Virus record (IMG/VR): IMGVR_UViG_3300027849_001076
Span: 1-37,706 of that record
DNA: 37,706 nucleotides
Direction: 5' to 3' (one strand)
DNA from: a virus
Part shown: piece by piece, positions 1 to 37,463 of the stretch
How positions within the stretch are numbered: the first letter of the stretch is position 1
Layout: each line of letters starts with the position of its first letter
The notes under the pieces: generated by a model
Seen by the model: only the letters and a program-made list of their open reading frames with translations
Told to the model about the DNA's origin: nothing
Database searches by the model: none
Made by a program: the position numbers and the translations under genes

Positions 1-2502
1 TTATGCTGCTATGTACATCATTTTCAATTGCTTGCGCTGAATATTCTCTATGCTATGCATTGGATCATTTTTGGCTTCTAAGAATTTTTCAATTACAAGC
101 TTTTTCACATCTTTTGCATAATGAGGATAATGTATATTAGGAGTATTCAGGGCCCTTAAAACCATATCTTTTTTACCTTGTAATCCATATATAATAGCTT
201 TTTGAATCGCGTCCTCAAAACTAGTAACCTTTTTTACTTGATTTTGTGCTGCATTTTTTTGATTTAAGCTCAAGCTCGCAATCGATAGAAAAGAATTAAC
301 TTGAGCACCAAACACACCTTGAATGTTAAGCTTTGTATTTTTTACCAGTAAAATATCTTTTTTGGCTGATTGCCTGTCTGACGAGAATCTAAGGATTGCA
401 CTGTTGAAAAGACTGTTGGCGGAATCAATGTCTAAATAATATTTATTTTCAACATCTTCAACATTTGTTAAATCAATAGCTTTCTCTTCAATAGCATTAA
501 TAAATTGTATGCCTATCAAAGCTCGACTATCACGAGAGTTATGAACCAAGACACTCTCATACTCTTTTCTAGCTGCCCAATAATCACCTTTTTCTTTTAA
601 TACTTTGGCACGTTCAATAGATGCAATTAGCAACTTAGGGTAAGCAATCTTAACTTCATCAATAACCTTTAAAGCACTTTCAAACTGACCAATTCCTTTC
701 AACGTTAAACCATATTTCAGTTTAATTAAAGGATTATTCTTTACTGCAACACTTAGTCCGTGATAATAATCTAAACCTGTTGAATACTCACGTGTGACTA
801 GAAGTAGATGGAGTAACTCTAAATGCAATTCTTTGAAGTGTGGTTTTTTTCTACAAACGGAAGTCAAGTAACTTATAGCTTCTTTTGACTTGCCCTCTAA
901 ATTCAAAATCCTTGACTTTGTCAAATCAGGTACATAATCCTCATAGCTTGTAATGCTAAATCCTTTCTCTAAATACACCTTGGCAGTGGTGAAATTGCCC
1001 AGTTTTGCATTAATATAAGCAATAGAGAAGTTTACTATCTTCGAAGTTTCATCATCAGGAAATAATTCTAAGATTTTTGTATACAGATTAAGGCTTTCTT
1101 TATATTTTTTTAAATCAGACAGAACTGAGGCTTCTCCAATCATACCTCTAGACTCACTGGGGAACTCAGCCTGAATTCTTTTATATACATCTATTGCGTC
1201 AGTATATTTACCTAGGCCCTTTGTTATTTCAGCTTTACAAGCAAGCGCATTATGGTCTACTTCATTTAGATGACAGGCTTCATTTATATATTTTAAGGCA
1301 GTCCATAAATCATGCTTCTCCCTGAATACACGAGCTTTGCCAGTTAAACCATATAGTTGACTATTAACATCACCATTCATTGATTTGTCGAAAAAATTCA
1401 ATGCGTCTTCAAAACGCTCTAGGTGTAAGGATGCGTCACCAGCATGGCCATAAGTTCTATAGTCATCAGGCGCAACTTCTGTTGCACGAACAGCCCATAA
1501 GTATTGTAAATCGAAGAATTGGAGCTTTTTTGCATACTCGGACAAACTACACAAAGATAAAGCAGCATACTTACCATGACCATCATTATGTAATTGCGAT
1601 GAAACTAGGGTCTCTACCGCAGTTTTTGCTTCTTCGTGTTTAGAACTTCTCATTAACAGGTAAACACTTCTAATTTGTTTGTCTACACCGACTTTAGCTT
1701 CAGAAGAGCTAATCGTACTTTTTCGAGCCCTTTTATGAGGTAAATTAGCAAAAGAGTTATCTGGAGTTAAATCGTTGGATATATCTTCCACATTTCCAAC
1801 AATAGTGTGAGGTTTAAAGATATTAAAAATATCATCAGTGAAGGGCTTAGCATTTTGTATATTATTTTCACGTAACTTACAAAGCAAATCGAAAGCAATT
1901 TTTTGTTGTATATATTTTAAATTCAATTTTTTATTACTAAGTAAGCTGAGCACTCCGTTCTTAGCAAGGAATCCCTCTATAAAAGCAAAATCTTCATTTG
2001 AGAAATTGTATTTACCACATACTTCTTTAATACCAATTGAAATTTCATTTATTAAAGTTTGGCTATCTAATAAGATTTTGAGAAGGTTAACTGTGATCTT
2101 GCTATCGAGATTGAGAACTAGCTGAAGTGATGCAGCATCATACAGGTCTAAACTACGTGTAAAAACAATCTGATTGACATACCTCAAAGATTCGGGATCA
2201 TCTATAAAGATATCATCTAATTCTGTCACTAAAACCTGCTTAGTCTTAATTGATACTCTAGAATCAAACAGCATTAAAAACATAGTTAAACAATCAGAAT
2301 TTGTAGACTCTCTATATAGTTTTTTCTTTATTTCACTTTTGGAAGTATTAACTAAATGAACACAATCCTCTTTCTGGCGCAAATCAGAAAGAACACCAGC
2401 TCTTATTTTTTTAAACTCTTGAGTGTCTGCCTTAAACATATTAATAGCTGTTCCATCAACTTGAACAGCTATGCCTGAAGAACCTGAAATATATGCATCC
2501 AT
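1..2502 (-). CDS. TPR-repeat protein of mobile-element cargo, function unknown
   Basis: The 833-residue protein is complete; its TAA stop is the first three bases of the window. The first ~250 residues are helical with no motif I recognise. A basic, serine-rich linker follows at about 253-270. From about 275 to 700 it is a run of tetratricopeptide-like helical pairs, with recurrent ALxxxxKA and GRxxEA-type patterns. No signal peptide or membrane segment is visible, so it should be cytosolic. Its start lies one base beyond the stop of the zinc-ribbon gene, so the two are almost certainly co-translated. TPR superhelices usually bind proteins or peptides; a sensor or scaffold role for its partner is inference. 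A defence role is possible from the location beside an integrase but is not shown. Confidence 0.8.
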   Translation of the reverse strand: MDAYISGSSGIAVQVDGTAINMFKADTQEFKKIRAGVLSDLRQKEDCVHLVNTSKSEIKKKLYRESTNSDCLTMFLMLFDSRVSIKTKQVLVTELDDIFIDDPESLRYVNQIVFTRSLDLYDAASLQLVLNLDSKITVNLLKILLDSQTLINEISIGIKEVCGKYNFSNEDFAFIEGFLAKNGVLSLLSNKKLNLKYIQQKIAFDLLCKLRENNIQNAKPFTDDIFNIFKPHTIVGNVEDISNDLTPDNSFANLPHKRARKSTISSSEAKVGVDKQIRSVYLLMRSSKHEEAKTAVETLVSSQLHNDGHGKYAALSLCSLSEYAKKLQFFDLQYLWAVRATEVAPDDYRTYGHAGDASLHLERFEDALNFFDKSMNGDVNSQLYGLTGKARVFREKHDLWTALKYINEACHLNEVDHNALACKAEITKGLGKYTDAIDVYKRIQAEFPSESRGMIGEASVLSDLKKYKESLNLYTKILELFPDDETSKIVNFSIAYINAKLGNFTTAKVYLEKGFSITSYEDYVPDLTKSRILNLEGKSKEAISYLTSVCRKKPHFKELHLELLHLLLVTREYSTGLDYYHGLSVAVKNNPLIKLKYGLTLKGIGQFESALKVIDEVKIAYPKLLIASIERAKVLKEKGDYWAARKEYESVLVHNSRDSRALIGIQFINAIEEKAIDLTNVEDVENKYYLDIDSANSLFNSAILRFSSDRQSAKKDILLVKNTKLNIQGVFGAQVNSFLSIASLSLNQKNAAQNQVKKVTSFEDAIQKAIIYGLQGKKDMVLRALNTPNIHYPHYAKDVKKLVIEKFLEAKNDPMHSIENIQRKQLKMMYIAA

Positions 2503-3539: not shown

Positions 3540-4814
3540 TCACTTAACTGAATACTTATCAATTGATAACTTTTTTCCCCAATTTTCCAATGCAGTTCTT
3601 CTAGCCTCCATATATTCCTGCATATTATAAACCCCCTGAACCCCCTGTAATTGGTGATTTAGAATTTTTTCAATCACTATTGGGTCTGTTTCAACATCGG
3701 TATCACCTAAACGAGTCGCAACTGTTCTTCGTAAATCGTGAGGTACAAATTTTGGGACTCCCAATTTTTCTTGTTTACGACTTATGGAACGTGATAGTGA
3801 GTGCCTGTCAATCGGTTGCTCACCTGGGCCTGATTTATTAGTTGTTGTACTCGGAAATACATATTTAGAGTTGAGATAACCGAATGCTGCCCGTAACTCA
3901 TCAAGCAAAATAAGCATATTTTGAGTAATCGGTACTTTATGAGTTCTTTCGCCATCTTTGTTTTGCTTGACGCGCTCGGCTGGGATTGTCCATATCATTT
4001 TATCAAAATCAAATTCTTGCCATTGTGCGCCTGTGACCTCTATTGGCCTACAACCGGTTAAAGTAATACATTTCAATGCGTAAATAACTTGCTGGCTGAT
4101 ACCTAGCTTTGGTAGGCGGTCAAATACTTGAATCACTTCGTCAAACTCCAGCGCTCTGGTTCGCGACTTTTCAAGGCCACCTACACTCTTCTTTTTAACT
4201 GTGCTAATTGGATTACCTTGGATTAAATCTCGATCAACACCAAAATTAAACATTTGCTTAAGGATAGATAGTGTTTTATTCGCCTGCGTTTTAGCACCTC
4301 TATCTGTTATTGGATCAAGAACTTTTTTGAAAATTTCACGGCGGGTTATTTCTTTAAGTTTATAGTTGCCAATAAATGGCAAAATGTCTTTTTCAAACAT
4401 TCTTATTACAGGGTCTACACCTTTACGATTAGCTTTAATATCTCTTTCAATAAACTCATTCGCAAGAACTGCGATTGTCGGTGAGGTGCTTTCTTGCTTT
4501 CCAATCAGCGCTGCTTTCTTTTTTTGTAAAAAAACATCAATACCGCGCGACACATCACCAATATACTGCTTAGCAAGCTGCCTAGCCTCACTCACTGTTA
4601 TCACCGATGAGTTGCCTAAGGCTAACCTTCTTTCTTTCGAACCTCGGCCTCCTAGGCGGTAATACAGATAATATACCTGTGAGCGCTTTCCTTCTTTATT
4701 TGGCTTACCAATATTTAAATAAAAACCGGAAATCTCAGTATCATTGATTTTGGTAATTTCCAAAGGGGTATTTTTGAGTATAGATTCAGTTAATTTTACT
4801 TTGATTGACGCCAT
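3540..4814 (-). CDS. int: P4-type tyrosine integrase with DUF4102-like N terminus
   Basis: A site-specific recombinase that integrates and excises a genomic element at a tRNA. I chose ATG 4814 (424 residues) because an AGGTG ribosome site lies about 8 bases upstream; an upstream in-frame start at 4856 is less likely. The N-terminal ~95 residues resemble the DUF4102 arm-binding domain, and a SAM-like core-binding domain follows. The catalytic domain appears intact: Arg256 in TGCRPIE, His359 and Arg362 in HDLRR, His387 in LNHQ and Tyr396 in GVYNMQEY. Length is typical of P4/CP4-57-type integrases. The start lies about 200 bp from the tRNA-Pro fragment and the gene reads away from it, which fits that fragment being its attachment core. 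Confidence 0.95.
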   Translation of the reverse strand: MASIKVKLTESILKNTPLEITKINDTEISGFYLNIGKPNKEGKRSQVYYLYYRLGGRGSKERRLALGNSSVITVSEARQLAKQYIGDVSRGIDVFLQKKKAALIGKQESTSPTIAVLANEFIERDIKANRKGVDPVIRMFEKDILPFIGNYKLKEITRREIFKKVLDPITDRGAKTQANKTLSILKQMFNFGVDRDLIQGNPISTVKKKSVGGLEKSRTRALEFDEVIQVFDRLPKLGISQQVIYALKCITLTGCRPIEVTGAQWQEFDFDKMIWTIPAERVKQNKDGERTHKVPITQNMLILLDELRAAFGYLNSKYVFPSTTTNKSGPGEQPIDRHSLSRSISRKQEKLGVPKFVPHDLRRTVATRLGDTDVETDPIVIEKILNHQLQGVQGVYNMQEYMEARRTALENWGKKLSIDKYSVK

Positions 4815-28128: not shown

Positions 28129-28263
28129 ATGAAAACTATCAACCTAAGCAGCTTTTTTGCTTTCCTCAGGCGGATAAATATCAGGCCGCAGCTCATACCT
28201 AGACACACCCGTGACTTTTTCAATAAGAATTACTTTATCAGGCGCAACTTTGCCGGTTCTTAG
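28129..28263 (+). CDS. Possible 44-aa ORF antisense to the Cro-like gene
   Basis: ATG 28129 has a strong AGGAG site and an upstream TAAAAT -10-like box (28093-28098). The product (MKTINLSSFF onward) becomes basic and loses any pattern once it overlaps the opposite-strand Cro-like gene. It may be the leftover start of a gene replaced by recombination, or a small antisense transcript. The coding claim is weak. Confidence 0.3.
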   Translation: MKTINLSSFFAFLRRINIRPQLIPRHTRDFFNKNYFIRRNFAGS

Positions 28264-28365
28264 CCAGTTAGATACGTTTTGTTGAGAAGTTTGAATTGCA
28301 TCGGCAAGTTTTACTTGGCCACCTAAAGTAGCAATTGCTTTTTGTAATGCTGGTTGAGTAGTCAT
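28144..28365 (-). CDS. YdaS/Cro-like HTH regulator
   Basis: 73 residues. The helix-turn-helix is clear: GGQVKLADAIQTSQQNVSNWLRTG, with the recognition helix around SQQNVSNWL. YdaS-type Cro proteins have this layout, followed by a short tail (SRYELRPDIYPPEE). It diverges from the CI-like gene and leads the leftward early operon, so it should promote the lytic state by repressing the CI promoter. Its promoter overlaps two operators. Confidence 0.88.
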   Translation of the reverse strand: MTTQPALQKAIATLGGQVKLADAIQTSQQNVSNWLRTGKVAPDKVILIEKVTGVSRYELRPDIYPPEESKKAA

Positions 28366-28396
28366 TTTGATACCTACTTTGTGATTGACCCCTCAC

Positions 28397-28424
28397 ATCA
28401 TACAACTTAAATTGTAATTTACAA
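28397..28424 (-). promoter_or_regulatory. Predicted leftward early (cro) promoter
   Basis: -35 TTGTAA (28424-28419), a 16-base spacer and -10 TATGAT (28402-28397). Operator 1 lies inside the spacer and operator 2 touches the -35, so repressor binding should block it. Confidence 0.55.
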
Positions 28425-28463
28425 CAAATTAAGTTGTTTTCTATATTACAAATTTTCTTGTAA
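28402..28463. promoter_or_regulatory. Left operator region: three repressor sites
   Basis: Site 1 is ACAACTTAAATTGTAA (28402-28417), site 2 ACAACAAATTAAGTTGT (28421-28437) and site 3 TTACAAATTTTCTTGTAA (28446-28463). All are imperfect palindromes with (TT)ACAA(C/T)...(G/A)TTGT(AA) ends. They sit between the divergent Cro-like and CI-like genes. Site 1 recurs identically in the right operator region. Confidence 0.85.
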
Positions 28464-28492
28464 AATGAAAAAAACCATATAAATTAATAATT

Positions 28493-29119
28493 ATGAATAC
28501 ATTAGCTAAGCGTTTAAGTTATGTTTTAGAGATGAAAGACATAACTCAGGAAAAAGTCGCTAGCGCTATAGGTGCTAGTCAGCAGTCCATTCATGCCATA
28601 TGTTCAGGTAAGACCTTAAAGCCGAGAAACCTTGTCGCCATAGCAAGGTTCCTAAATGTATCACCAGATTGGTTAGAATCTGGCAGTGGTAGTATGGGTG
28701 TAAATGAAAATAACACTATAGAAATGAAAAAATTTAGTCCTAACGTCCCCTTGATCAGCTGGGTGCAAGCAGGTCATTGGGCTGACATTCATTTGAACGA
28801 TGTAGAAACGTTTTACCCCTGCCCTGAAAAGCACAGCCAATCAACCTATTCACTTGAAGTAAAAGGCGAGTCAATGTCGCCCGACTTTATCAATGGCGAA
28901 ATAATCTTTGTTGATCCAGAGGTCGAAGCGCGTAACGGTTCGTGCGTTGTTATTAGGCAAAATGGCAATACAGAAGCTACATTTAAACAACTTATTATTG
29001 ATGGCTCGCAAAAATACTTAAAAGCACTCAACCCAAACTGGCCTAACCCAATAATAGAAATGCTCCCTGATGCCACCATTTGTGGTGTAGTTATTGGCAG
29101 TTATAGAAAAAGGAATTAA
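28493..29119 (+). CDS. cI: CI-like phage repressor (HTH + S24 LexA-type peptidase)
   Basis: 208 residues. The N-terminal HTH (about 7-60, ITQEKVASAIGASQQSIHAICSGK) binds operators. The S24 domain has the self-cleavage bond Ala93-Gly94 in VQAGHW, nucleophile Ser127 in GESMSP and Lys165 in ATFKQL, all intact. It should hold lysogeny and be inactivated by RecA-stimulated cleavage after DNA damage. No ribosome site precedes the ATG, and a TATAAA box (28478-28483) lies about ten bases upstream, so the mRNA may be leaderless as for lambda cI from pRM. Confidence 0.95.
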   Translation: MNTLAKRLSYVLEMKDITQEKVASAIGASQQSIHAICSGKTLKPRNLVAIARFLNVSPDWLESGSGSMGVNENNTIEMKKFSPNVPLISWVQAGHWADIHLNDVETFYPCPEKHSQSTYSLEVKGESMSPDFINGEIIFVDPEVEARNGSCVVIRQNGNTEATFKQLIIDGSQKYLKALNPNWPNPIIEMLPDATICGVVIGSYRKRN

Positions 29120-29130
29120 CAGGTAATCTC

Positions 29131-30363
29131 ATGATAAAAAATATTATTTTGTGTATATTTGGGTGCATCATAACTGCGTTCACATTTTTTTATTCAACAA
29201 TTGCACTTGGCGTTATCGTATCTATTTTGGTCGTGACTCTATTTTTAAGTTTATGGGGACAAGACGCAATAGTTACAAAAGTAAAACAGTACCCTATTTC
29301 AGCCATTATTTCTGTTATTGCACTCTATACTACTGTAATTGTCTTAATTGCGATCTCTCATGAGGACTTCTATAACGATAGCAAAACATTGACTCTCCCT
29401 GATGGGTTCATTGCCTCTTTCTATGCATCTGCATTTCAGGATCTAATTTTTTATTTACTAATTACATTAACGACAGCATTTGTAATTAAGTACATAAAAG
29501 TTAAGGATCCTCTTGACTATAATTTCATAGAAAAAATCCTCCATATGTTCCCTTTAATTAAAGATGACGAGATTCAAAAGGATTACATAACCCACAAAAT
29601 GAATATACTTTCTTGTGAAATTATTCAAACGGAGAAAACTATCGTCTACCAAGAATGTGACGAAGAATTCTTAAAAATACTAACAAATACAAACTCTATA
29701 TATAGAAATATTCACCATAATTATAACGTTACTGAAAAAATAGGTTCTTTAGGCGTTGCCCCAGATACTTCTGTGATTGAGAAATTTAAGGGTAGCCATT
29801 GGGGTGAGTTACATCATGTTACATTTGTGGGTAACGATCCCTCTAAAACAAGTGAGATTCCTTATAAGAAATTTACCGGCAAGTCCTATTCTGATGAATA
29901 CTATATAAACCTAAAAGCAGGTAAGCAAGGTAGGCTAACAACGAACTATTGGTTTTGGATGGATATGAAAAACGAAGGAAGAACAACTCCTAGTTTTTTC
30001 ACAAAAGAGTACATAATCTTCTTAAAAAATGAAACACAATGCACTCTTGAGTTTGTTGTAAAATCCAACACTAATGATGATGTAACCTTTAGTTTAAAGC
30101 CTGGGGAAGACTGGAAATCAAAACCTTTCAAAGATTTAGTTCCAGATAAGGATGAAATAAGTATTAAAATAACTAATACTGATGAATTAAAAAAAGCACA
30201 TAAGTGTGCTAGTGCTAAAACAGATACTGATAAAAATGATCCCGCAGGAACAGAAACTATTGTCGAAAATCCTCCTGTTCCAGATAATGTAACTGTCGAG
30301 GTAGACACTACGATTAAAATTAATGACGATAGTAAGGGTGGAACTAACCCAAAAACCAAATGA
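29131..30363 (+). CDS. Four-helix membrane protein co-transcribed with CI
   Basis: 410 residues; ATG 29131 follows AGGT and is 11 bases from the CI stop. Four hydrophobic helices occupy about 3-20, 24-43, 54-76 and 101-122, and a ~290-residue soluble domain follows. It ends in a Thr/Pro/Asp-rich low-complexity tail. No known domain is recognisable. Because it shares the CI transcript it should be made in lysogens, like rexAB in lambda; a superinfection-exclusion or conversion role is inference from position. AT-rich base use differs from the AC-rich early genes to its right. Confidence 0.8.
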   Translation: MIKNIILCIFGCIITAFTFFYSTIALGVIVSILVVTLFLSLWGQDAIVTKVKQYPISAIISVIALYTTVIVLIAISHEDFYNDSKTLTLPDGFIASFYASAFQDLIFYLLITLTTAFVIKYIKVKDPLDYNFIEKILHMFPLIKDDEIQKDYITHKMNILSCEIIQTEKTIVYQECDEEFLKILTNTNSIYRNIHHNYNVTEKIGSLGVAPDTSVIEKFKGSHWGELHHVTFVGNDPSKTSEIPYKKFTGKSYSDEYYINLKAGKQGRLTTNYWFWMDMKNEGRTTPSFFTKEYIIFLKNETQCTLEFVVKSNTNDDVTFSLKPGEDWKSKPFKDLVPDKDEISIKITNTDELKKAHKCASAKTDTDKNDPAGTETIVENPPVPDNVTVEVDTTIKINDDSKGGTNPKTK

Positions 30364-30407
30364 TATTTAGTTAAGGAAGGCTTAAGGTTTTATCATTAAT
30401 ATAGTAC

Positions 30408-30434
30408 ATGACAATAGAAAAAATATGTTATAAT
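30408..30434 (+). promoter_or_regulatory. Strong extended -10 promoter of the mini-peptide unit
   Basis: TG-T-TATAAT (30426-30434) is a perfect extended -10 element. ATGACA (30408-30413) is a -35-like box at 15-base spacing. The predicted start is near 30441, and no repressor operator overlaps it. Confidence 0.65.
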
Positions 30435-30476
30435 CTACTCATGAAGATTCATTCACCACAACACAAGGGGGTCGTT

Positions 30477-30530
30477 ATGGCTCACGTAGTTAAAGAACAT
30501 GTTGTTAAAGAACATGTTGTTAAAGAATAA
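30477..30530 (+). CDS. 17-residue peptide with tandem HVVKE repeats
   Basis: The frame MAHVVKEHVVKEHVVKE starts at ATG 30477, five bases after AAGGGGG, and stops at TAA 30528. The DNA repeat unit is 15 bases (gttaaagaacatgtt). An in-frame ATG at 30441 would lie at the predicted transcript start. The unit has its own promoter and ends at two terminators, giving a transcript of about 150 bases. It may encode a peptide, or the RNA itself may matter. I know of no family. Confidence 0.45.
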   Translation: MAHVVKEHVVKEHVVKE

Positions 30531-30566
30531 TCATAATAAAAAATCTATTACTTTAGTAATTTAAAG

Positions 30567-30592
30567 AACTGGACTACAAGTCCAGTTTTTTT
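30567..30592 (+). terminator. Terminator of the mini-peptide unit
   Basis: AACTGGACT (30567-30575) and AGTCCAGTT (30579-30587) form a 9-bp stem with a 3-base loop, running into seven T. Confidence 0.9.
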
Positions 30593-30616
30593 ATAGCTAT
30601 AAAAAATTTCTCTTTT

Positions 30617-30642
30617 AAACCGCCTTTTTCGGCGGTTTTTTT
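30617..30642 (+). terminator. Second tandem terminator before the right operators
   Basis: AAACCGCC (30617-30624) and GGCGGTTT (30631-30638), then T-run. With the previous terminator it insulates the rightward early operon from CI-side transcription. Confidence 0.88.
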
Positions 30643-30672
30643 ATGCCTATCAAAAAGTACTCACGAACAAAA

Positions 30673-30746
30673 TTACAATTTAAATTGTAATTTAATGTTG
30701 ACTCAAACAATTTAAGTTGTATTCTAAATAACAACTTAAATTGTAA
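30673..30746. promoter_or_regulatory. Right operator region: three repressor sites
   Basis: Site 1 is the perfect 18-bp palindrome TTACAATTTAAATTGTAA (30673-30690). Site 2 is ACAATTTAAGTTGT (30707-30720), and site 3 is ACAACTTAAATTGTAA (30731-30746), identical to left-region site 1. Together the two regions form an OL/OR-like pair 2.2 kb apart. Confidence 0.88.
30698..30725 (+). promoter_or_regulatory. Predicted rightward early promoter
   Basis: -35 TTGACT (30698-30703), a 16-base spacer and -10 TATTCT (30720-30725). Operator site 2 fills the spacer and site 3 lies at the start point. Confidence 0.6.
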
Positions 30747-30755
30747 GACCGTACT

Positions 30756-31160
30756 ATGAACACTCAACGCACAGAAACCGGATACCAGCTTGACGGCATG
30801 CACGTTAACGCCAAGCCCTATTCACGCCTACCAACCCAACAAGCGCGCACTTTGTTATTGGTGGCTAAAGGCCTACCACAAAAAAGCATAGCTGCTGAAT
30901 TGGGCGTAAAACTGTGCACAGTTCGCCAAGCATGTAACGAGCTCAGCTTTAAATTCAACACCCATTCCATGCGCCAAACGGTACACCAAGCAATCAAGCA
31001 AGGCGTACTGCGCTACACAGTTTGCATAGTGCTTTGCCTAATTAGCGCAGCAAATAACGACCTAGAACGCAGCTTTAGAACTATTCGGGTAGCCCGAACA
31101 GTTCGCACCACCCGTTTACGCCGCTTGCGTGAACTACAAAACGACTTACTAGCAGCCTAA
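30756..31160 (+). CDS. LuxR/GerE-type HTH protein, first right early gene
   Basis: 134 residues. Residues ~25-85 match the LuxR-family C-terminal HTH: LPTQQARTLLLVAKGLPQKSIAAELGV, a variant recognition helix (LCTVRQACNELSFKF) and an AIKQGVL end. A short hydrophobic stretch (YTVCIVLCLISAA) and an Arg-rich tail follow. No receiver or autoinducer domain is present. It is probably a phage transcription regulator acting on early or lysogeny promoters. No clear ribosome site precedes the ATG. Confidence 0.8.
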   Translation: MNTQRTETGYQLDGMHVNAKPYSRLPTQQARTLLLVAKGLPQKSIAAELGVKLCTVRQACNELSFKFNTHSMRQTVHQAIKQGVLRYTVCIVLCLISAANNDLERSFRTIRVARTVRTTRLRRLRELQNDLLAA

Positions 31161-34904: not shown

Positions 34905-36128
34905 TTATTTTTTATTAGTGATGTCTATACCCATCTTAATTAACCTCGCCTTCTCACCCGAAGTTTCACTTTTTAAACGGTTATAATCTTGGTATTCTTC
35001 TGGCGAAGTTTTATTTTTACATGTAGTAAAAATCAAGTCCAAGCCATCAACTATTTTATTTAACTCCTTATATTCCTCCTTAATCTCGCCTTCACTTTGA
35101 GAGAGTTTATCCTTTAATTTTTTATTTAAAATTACAACTAAATTCATTTGATTTTTAGAAATTATCTCACCAACTTTAATATCTACTCTTTCATATATTA
35201 CTTTAGACAAGATAAGATTATATCTCTCTTGCTCTAAGGAGAAACTCAAACCTTTTTCATAGCTTTTCCTCATTGACGAAATAAAACCACCATAACTTTC
35301 AAAAACTTTATTTATTTCATCATGTTTTTCAAGTTTTTTCTGAAGTAAACCTAGTAATAACTTACCCGAGCAGATATAAGCCTTGATTGCAGGAGCAATA
35401 AAGTTAGTATAATTAATACCATCACCGAATGCGGCATCTCTGAACCTCTTTAAAATAAGGAAATTATTACTTTTTTTAAATTTACTAACACTTGTGTTAT
35501 GGCAAGAAAAATATAAATGCTCAAGAATTCCATACTCCTCTATTAAACTTTTATATTTCGAGAATTTAAATTCACCACTCCCAGCCTTCTGCGCCGAGTT
35601 CAACGCTAGTAAAAACACAAGTTCATTTGATAAAAATGACCTAAATATACGTGAATACTTCCTTCTATCATCTGGACAGCTTTCATCTACAAACTTCAAT
35701 ACTTGATATGCTACTCGTAAATAACTATTTATCTGAGGGCTTTCATTAATATCAGCGGAAGCCGAACTTTTTTCGTTTTCTAACCATTCATTACCTAATT
35801 TATTTAAAGTAACATCAACAGAAGACGCCTTAAGATCTGTCTTTGAAGTTATTTTATGTGCAATATCATTATGTTGTTCTAACAACAAATTAAAGGTATT
35901 TTCAAATGACTGTTGTTTGAAAGTTTTTACAACATAATACAAAGATCCTATGGCTAAAAAAGGGGAAAGTAATCCACCTAAATAACTTCCAAACGCTCCC
36001 CAATCCTGTGGGTTTTTAGATATAGCATTATTCGAAAAATTTAGTACGTAAGGTGTAACTATAAAAAACAACATAATCAATATAAATATTGTTACTTTAT
36101 AGCTTTCTCTTAATTTGAAATATGACAA
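34905..36128 (-). CDS. PutAbiC-like abortive phage infection membrane protein
   Basis: 407 residues from TTG 36128, with AAAAGG upstream; no ATG is better placed. Two N-terminal membrane helices (about 12-30, 47-66) flank a short loop with DWGAFGSYLGG. A cytosolic helical domain follows, with ENTFNLLLEQHNDI, LRVAYQVLKFVDE, RRKYSRIFRSFLSNE and KYKSLIEEYGILEHL. These match what I recall of the putative phage abortive infection family (PF16872, PutAbiC). It probably protects the lysogen or host from other phages. Converges on the integrase gene with 12 bases between. Confidence 0.82.
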   Translation of the reverse strand: MSYFKLRESYKVTIFILIMLFFIVTPYVLNFSNNAISKNPQDWGAFGSYLGGLLSPFLAIGSLYYVVKTFKQQSFENTFNLLLEQHNDIAHKITSKTDLKASSVDVTLNKLGNEWLENEKSSASADINESPQINSYLRVAYQVLKFVDESCPDDRRKYSRIFRSFLSNELVFLLALNSAQKAGSGEFKFSKYKSLIEEYGILEHLYFSCHNTSVSKFKKSNNFLILKRFRDAAFGDGINYTNFIAPAIKAYICSGKLLLGLLQKKLEKHDEINKVFESYGGFISSMRKSYEKGLSFSLEQERYNLILSKVIYERVDIKVGEIISKNQMNLVVILNKKLKDKLSQSEGEIKEEYKELNKIVDGLDLIFTTCKNKTSPEEYQDYNRLKSETSGEKARLIKMGIDITNKK

Positions 36129-36647: not shown

Positions 36648-37463
36648 TTAAGGCTTTAGACTTAATTGTTTGTGCGGTTTTTTAAACTTATCTTGTAATT
36701 GAAGTGCTACCTTTTCAATTTCAGGTTCTATGTGTTTTCGCCTGAATATATCGAGTACCACTTCAAACACTTTGTATGAGTCTAATAAGTCATCTTCAGT
36801 TATTTTATCAGCATGCGTCGCTTCATTCCCTACAAGCCGAAGTGATTGAAGCCAGCGCGCCTCTAAAGGAAATTCATCAGCCATAGCCTCAATGTTTTGA
36901 TAGAGATTTCTCTCTTGTGTATAACCTAACTCTAAGCATAGCTTTTCAACCGCCCTTCTTAGCCGATTACCCGAAGAACAAGTGTCAGAAAAAAAGTGAT
37001 TAAACGAACTTAATAACTCTTCATTTATAGAGGTCGGTGTTGTTTCGCTCAATGGAAACAAGGGTAAAGGCGGGTTGAAGCTTTCAACTTTAATTTGTCT
37101 AACCGATGTATCATTATTTGGTATTTTAGCTAAGCCAGTAGATGACACATTTTCATTACACATACCACACTTGAAAAATGCAATAAATTGCGAAGGTTGG
37201 TACATTGCCCCATCAGCAGCAGTTAGAACAAGTGCTGCTAACTTAAAGAAGCTATTATCTTCTTTATTTGCGAAATCCATTAACTCATTGTCTTTAAACT
37301 GTTCCTGATAAGCTCTTCTTGCTTGCCAAGATAATTTCCTAGCAGTAAAGCTTTCAGTATCTAATTTAAGATTCATACTTTTACAGTATGGGCATGGTAA
37401 AGCGGGATAGCTCTCTAGAAAATTTAGTTTGGACACGTTAGCCCATAATTGCTTATTAAACAT
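36648..37463 (-). CDS. DUF4145-containing protein with N-terminal zinc-binding region
   Basis: 271 residues; ATG 37463 follows AGGAAA. CPYCKS at ~24-29 and a distant CGMC near 103 suggest a zinc site. The C-terminal half matches DUF4145: FNPPLPLFPLS, then SSGNRLRRAVEKLCLELG, ALEARWLQSLRLVGNEATH-type residues and a DLLDSYKVFEVVLDI helix. DUF4145 is found alone and fused to restriction and other defence enzymes; its molecular role is unsettled. Together with the PutAbiC-like gene it suggests a defence block. Confidence 0.78.
   Translation of the reverse strand: MFNKQLWANVSKLNFLESYPALPCPYCKSMNLKLDTESFTARKLSWQARRAYQEQFKDNELMDFANKEDNSFFKLAALVLTAADGAMYQPSQFIAFFKCGMCNENVSSTGLAKIPNNDTSVRQIKVESFNPPLPLFPLSETTPTSINEELLSSFNHFFSDTCSSGNRLRRAVEKLCLELGYTQERNLYQNIEAMADEFPLEARWLQSLRLVGNEATHADKITEDDLLDSYKVFEVVLDIFRRKHIEPEIEKVALQLQDKFKKPHKQLSLKP

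Follow-up and report, generated by a model that had tools for sequence, protein, structure and literature searches.

A membrane protein gene paired with a separate micro-ORF of about 8 to 17 codons appears to be a recurring genetic unit that has gone undescribed. One such pair lies in the window, the whole 37.7-kb record of a marine bacterial virus analyzed here, where the ATG of a 17-codon frame stands 113 nt past the stop codon of a gene for a 410-aa membrane protein (Table 1). All seven remote relatives of this protein likewise have a micro-ORF downstream, of 8 to 11 codons and within 38 to 160 nt. We found no described system of this kind in the open-access literature, which covers few subscription journals or preprints.

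Table 1. Features of the immunity region of the window, and peptides encoded by the micro-ORFs of the remote relatives
Feature	Position	Strand	Remarks
CI-type repressor (HTH and S24 peptidase)	28493..29119	+	Operon head; the same operon carries the 410-aa gene
410-aa membrane protein gene	29131..30363	+	Hydrophobic helices at the N-terminus; begins 11 nt after CI
Promoter of the mini-gene	30408..30434	+	-35-like ATGACA at 30408-30413, 15-nt spacer, extended -10 TGTTATAAT at 30426-30434; predicted start about 30441
Strong Shine-Dalgarno sequence AAGGGGG	30465..30471	+	ATG at 30477
17-codon micro-ORF, MAHVVKEHVVKEHVVKE and stop	30477..30530	+	Three 15-nt repeat units
Intrinsic terminator T1 of the mini-gene	30563..30592 (about)	+	Predicted
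Terminator T2	30612..30640	+	Conserved at the end of the cargo slot; no specific feature of the mini-gene
Three operator palindromes	30675..30744		Adjoin the start of the sigma-region-4-like regulator gene (30756-31160)
L064 micro-ORF			MTIQSESKGM
L070 micro-ORF			MMSKVKGM
L071 micro-ORF			MRNEQTGP
L072 micro-ORF			MSNGFTGG
L077 micro-ORF			MKGEFTGP
L078 micro-ORF			MIVNGSDFTGA
L079 micro-ORF			MKNGFTGV

The mini-gene and its place in the immunity region

The window carries genes for terminase, portal, tape measure, primase/helicase, integrase, CI and Cro-type regulators, the gene content of a temperate tailed phage, and close relatives of it are found in Pseudoalteromonas genomes. The first-pass annotation had reported an extended -10 promoter, a very strong ribosome site and a 17-codon frame in its immunity region, and all three lie exactly where it placed them. 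The extended -10 is the only TGNTATAAT on either strand of the window, and the exact pattern AAGGRGG-N5-ATG occurs once in it, at the start of the micro-ORF. The frame remains open upstream, with in-frame ATGs at 30441 and 30408, and only the ATG at 30477 has a Shine-Dalgarno sequence. As an ordered set within 260 bp, an extended -10, a Shine-Dalgarno sequence with its ATG and a terminator occur once in the window and in none of 400 dinucleotide shuffles, which bears out the view that the unit is too organized to be an accident. The predicted promoter-to-terminator unit measures ~155 nt. Its transcript folds more stably than shuffled sequences (z = -3.6, much of it accounted for by the terminator hairpin), and Rfam covariance models gave no match at gathering score anywhere in the window.

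Other parts of the earlier description need to be amended. Both of the tandem terminators assigned to the unit are present, but T2 is not part of it: T2 bounds the slot in many of 20 related loci and there ends quite different cargo. A 28-nt tail common to T1 and T2 (30585-30612 and 30635-30662, 82% identical) may have been the point of joining when the mini-gene came into the slot. Nor does the unit stand alone, as had been supposed: we saw no clear terminator to part the mini-gene from the CI/410-aa operon, and the 410-aa gene is its genetic partner. The operator pattern ACAATTTAAATTGT, with up to three mismatches allowed, matches at 28402, 28424, 30675, 30707 and 30731; the promoter of the mini-gene holds no match and is free of a CI operator, as the first-pass annotation had stated.

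The region from CI to the operators, before the regulator gene at 30756, is a variable cargo slot across the 20 related loci, and in the window it holds the 410-aa gene followed by the mini-gene with its own terminator. In these loci (L005-L019 and L026-L030) the slot, upstream of the 134-aa gene, is hypervariable, with cargo on either strand that differs in nearly every phage. Such a slot between CI and the right operators is a ready place to seek exclusion genes. A second copy of the module was found only in a sister phage, IMG/VR record 2724679063, where the slot is identical. Between about 28,600 and 30,659 the two records differ by one base change and their flanks differ by several per cent; the repressor and its cargo were therefore swapped as one module. 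When positions 28200-30660 are compared with locus L007, the repressor-plus-cargo block is almost identical and the flanks are several per cent apart, which points to a recent exchange of the whole immunity module; at its first right operator, L007 is longer by 12 nt (AAATTACAATTT).

Beside the integrase, on the minus strand, are genes for a putAbiC-domain protein (34905-36128) and for a DUF4145 protein with a weak PD-T7-4 match (36648-37463), a second cargo region of likely defense genes. Profile comparison detected no relation between the putAbiC protein and the 410-aa protein.

The membrane protein family and its micro-ORFs

On sequence evidence, the 410-aa protein is the founding member of an unnamed family with seven remote relatives, all chromosomal and in Alteromonadales-type genomes. 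The first, in L064, is the only one among 109 Pseudoalteromonas genomes (BLASTP, 25% identity over 271 columns, E = 2e-20). Profile searches added three in 399 genomes of the family and three further in 395 genomes of the order, and returned none in a sample of 274 genomes of the class, which brings the family to eight members including that of the window. Identity to the 410-aa protein ranges from 17 to 26% where measured. The window protein scores about 1e-104 with profile A3, a value to be read with its own inclusion in that profile in mind; the evidence for membership that is independent of profiles is the BLASTP match between the window protein and L064. No family member rose above noise in Pfam, NCBIfam, PADLOC or PDB sequences where scanned, none of the eight matched PADLOC-DB 2.0.0 at E up to 0.1, and the window protein has no match in PHROG. 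A single-sequence AlphaFold model of the membrane protein had a mean pLDDT of 38, too poor to use.

The genes occur in several contexts. That of the window is the CI operon of a prophage, phage-type integrases lie beside the gene in loci L064 and L075, and type I restriction-modification and FRG genes lie beside it in L075. Several relatives lie between housekeeping genes and not in defense islands. In L064, a second small gene with a hairpin after it (about 4680-4806, minus strand; MALKPGPKP..., about 42 aa, rich in Lys and Pro) follows the family gene and its micro-ORF.

The hypothesis of a linked micro-ORF was formed on the first four relatives (L064, L070, L071 and L072). The other three (L077, L078 and L079) were fetched by protein profile only and then examined, as a blind test, and all three have a downstream micro-ORF. 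As controls we took the other genes in the collected loci that are 150 codons or longer, 183 in number, and applied one fixed definition: a strong-Shine-Dalgarno micro-ORF of 5 to 20 codons, at most 260 nt past the stop. Seven of the eight family members have one and none of the 183 controls does (Fisher p about 5e-12); three apparent control matches were the same family genes in larger extracts and were excluded. Because this definition was fixed after the first loci had been seen, added weight falls on the blind loci and the motif count. In that count, a micro-ORF of any kind ending in TGx or KGM was present in 7/8 family regions vs 2/183 controls, one of the two having been fetched by the motif itself. 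The Shine-Dalgarno sequence is weaker in L079. Our scan recognized a sigma-70-like promoter of its own in about six of the eight mini-genes (L077 has a weak match only, L078 none worth the name) and a terminator in five, with none at L072, L077 or L079.

A reverse search of viral contigs for M-x-NGFTG-x followed by a stop gave 17 matches, none of them beside a family protein. One phage locus, L083, has a mini-gene (about 1890-2000, minus strand) with TGTTATAAT, GAGGTGG, a 28-aa frame ending in GNGFTGA and then a hairpin; the family membrane protein is absent from the 2.5 kb examined there. Its peptide could be a relative that works with another partner, or the resemblance could be fortuitous.

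The product of the mini-gene and its possible action

The small peptides end in TG[PGAV] in five relatives (FTG in four of them) and in KGM in two. Codons for the shared FTG vary as TTT/TTC, ACA/ACT and GGC/GGA/GGT, so that positions 1 and 2 are fixed and the third is free; as change is confined to the wobble position, it is the peptide that is the conserved product. In the protein tree, the window protein clusters with the two proteins of KGM type (support 98/96) and the TG-type peptides go with the other proteins. Such tracking of protein clade by motif is what would be expected of a peptide recognized by its partner protein, and with eight members it is suggestive but falls short of proof.

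The peptide of the window is the outlier of the family, with 17 residues and a C-terminus of VVKE instead of TG[PGAV] or KGM; its position and its partner, rather than a peptide motif, place it in the unit. It is probably a 7-codon gene, MAHVVKE, expanded by two 15-nt tandem duplications; 7 codons would match the usual gene size at this position. Repeat unit 1 differs from units 2 and 3 at two sites, both synonymous (CAC/CAT and GTA/GTT), which lends weak support to coding. The HVVKE repeats, on which the first-pass annotation had laid its emphasis, are probably incidental: they are absent from relatives beyond the identical sister module, and it is the architecture that recurs. The search for the repeat peptide in related prophages that it proposed returned only the sister copy, which is identical and has no silent-site variation to score; for the same reason this pair of phages is uninformative about selection on the peptide.

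Wider searches for the repeat peptide agree. The sister phage aside, degenerate DNA patterns gave only chance matches in longer or unrelated frames among viral contigs and none among genome contigs, and blastn against phages and plasmids gave only short, low-scoring chance matches. When the 29- and 40-aa extensions of the frame in the upstream direction were used as tblastn queries, nothing convincing came back, and blastn of the cassette against 109 Pseudoalteromonas genomes found AT-rich chance matches only, L034 being one such candidate that was inspected and rejected. The HVVKE pattern with three mismatches had no true relative in the 399 genomes of the family; L051 and L052 proved to be the start of a membrane transporter gene, and the matches in L053 and L054 lie inside longer frames.

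We propose a two-gene unit in which a separately transcribed micropeptide acts on the membrane protein, most likely as a labile, constitutive, antitoxin-like inhibitor, a reading in which our confidence is evenly balanced. The first gene would encode the effector, made up of transmembrane helices at the N-terminus and a soluble domain at the C-terminus, and the second would be the micro-ORF of 8 to 17 codons. Its peptide, made continuously and presumably short-lived, would bind and restrain the effector. Once an incoming phage, for instance, shuts off transcription or translation in the host, the peptide would be lost first and the effector released, resulting in exclusion or abortive infection. 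We infer the binding, the inhibitory rather than activating direction and the role in defense from the presence of a small peptide beside a membrane protein, which suggests an inhibitor pair that fires when expression stops; the CI operon, integrase and restriction-gene contexts fit such a pair. The location of several relatives among housekeeping genes, the small family of eight members and the deviant C-terminus of the window peptide speak against it. That the unit represents a new class of immunity or exclusion, in which a free peptide of ~8 residues recognized via its C-terminus restrains a membrane effector and reads out host expression, is a more tentative proposal, possible rather than probable.

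The main rival makes the peptide an activator, trigger or signal ligand of the membrane protein, pheromone-like or a sensor of translation. The evidence of linkage and coding is identical for both readings, and high peptide output could be had from a very short ORF that one ribosome re-translates many times (PMC6495379). However, we saw no export signal or exporter, and a strong constitutive promoter is more in keeping with an inhibitor made all the time than with a switch, so we consider this reading unlikely. The first-pass annotation had left the choice between a signaling, toxic or regulatory peptide and a small RNA that pairs with targets through its 15-base repeats. Of these a regulatory peptide stands; such pairing is disfavored because relatives lack the repeats and conserve amino acids, not nucleotides. 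More generally, the RNA could be the active product, as a regulatory RNA or an RNA antitoxin with an incidental ORF, and a compact unit with a stable fold is what such a product would show. But much of that stability comes from the terminator hairpin, and the mini-transcripts of different members align poorly at the nucleotide level, while sharing a Shine-Dalgarno sequence, a short frame and C-terminal amino acids with synonymous codon change. An RNA product is improbable on these grounds.

Translation of a few codons might instead tune the stability or expression of a neighboring mRNA, the micro-ORF being a cis-acting minigene or a decaying leader. There is a published precedent within a toxin-antitoxin operon, axe-txe (PMC8708949), but its mini-ORF precedes the regulated gene and here the micro-ORF follows its partner, has a promoter and terminator of its own and conserves its C-terminal residues; we regard this as distinctly improbable. 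A stand-alone repeat peptide unrelated to the membrane protein (toxic, signaling or antimicrobial, such as a microcin-C-like precursor) would account for a 17-mer confined to this module and its sister, and mccA genes also have 7 to 8 codons and a strong Shine-Dalgarno sequence. It would leave unexplained why a micro-ORF follows each relative of the membrane protein; the neighbors scanned include no MccB-like gene, and the C-termini are not Asn, which makes it very improbable. Least credible is a chance arrangement or a remnant without function: the window peptide has no relatives and its repeats resemble slippage, yet the shuffles, the controls and the three blind confirmations stand against it.

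Genes of eight codons are invisible to annotation pipelines. An octapeptide gene dedicated to a membrane protein would, if true, be among the smallest known genetic partners, and strong-Shine-Dalgarno micro-ORFs tied to an orphan protein family offer a search route for more. If the peptide is the antitoxin of the effector, it would give a lysogen a simple way to sense an invader's shutdown of gene expression.

Comparison with known systems

Like the moron and superinfection-exclusion cargo of temperate phages, the 410-aa gene and mini-gene occupy a variable slot between repressor and right operators. Unlike such cargo, they are two genes, one of them for a micropeptide, and relatives occur outside prophages too. 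The axe-txe minigene is also a very short ORF near a toxin-antitoxin locus, but it has two codons, precedes the toxin gene, acts in cis and has no conserved peptide (PMC8708949).

Among known genes, mccA, which encodes the heptapeptide precursor of microcin C, comes closest in size and design: it has 7 to 8 codons, a strong Shine-Dalgarno sequence and a short terminated transcript, and its length is conserved while most of its sequence is not (PMC6495379). ORFs of 2 to 8 codons were found to be repeatedly translated by one ribosome, with an output that drops with length (recycling estimates of 71 for 7 codons, 30 for 11 and 6 for 15) (PMC6495379). By analogy, the length of about 8 codons in most members may have its explanation here, and the 17-codon version of the window would be expected to undergo less reiterative translation. 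Neither mark of a microcin C cluster that we looked for is present. The neighbors examined include no MccB adenylating enzyme or exporter, the flanking genes being those for CI, the 410-aa protein (which has no Pfam match) and the sigma-region-4-like regulator; the partner is instead a membrane protein. No peptide of the eight has a C-terminal Asn; seven have TG[PGAV] or KGM there.

Toxin-antitoxin and abortive-infection pairs with membrane effectors share with our unit a small, independently expressed partner and a setting in prophages or mobile elements; the differences are that here the partner is a free peptide of ~8 residues and the effector falls outside PADLOC, Pfam, NCBIfam and PHROG families. 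The antitoxins described so far are RNAs or considerably longer proteins, and to our knowledge none is a free peptide of about eight residues made from its own gene. By analogy, it is these pairs that come nearest to the likely logic of the unit described here.
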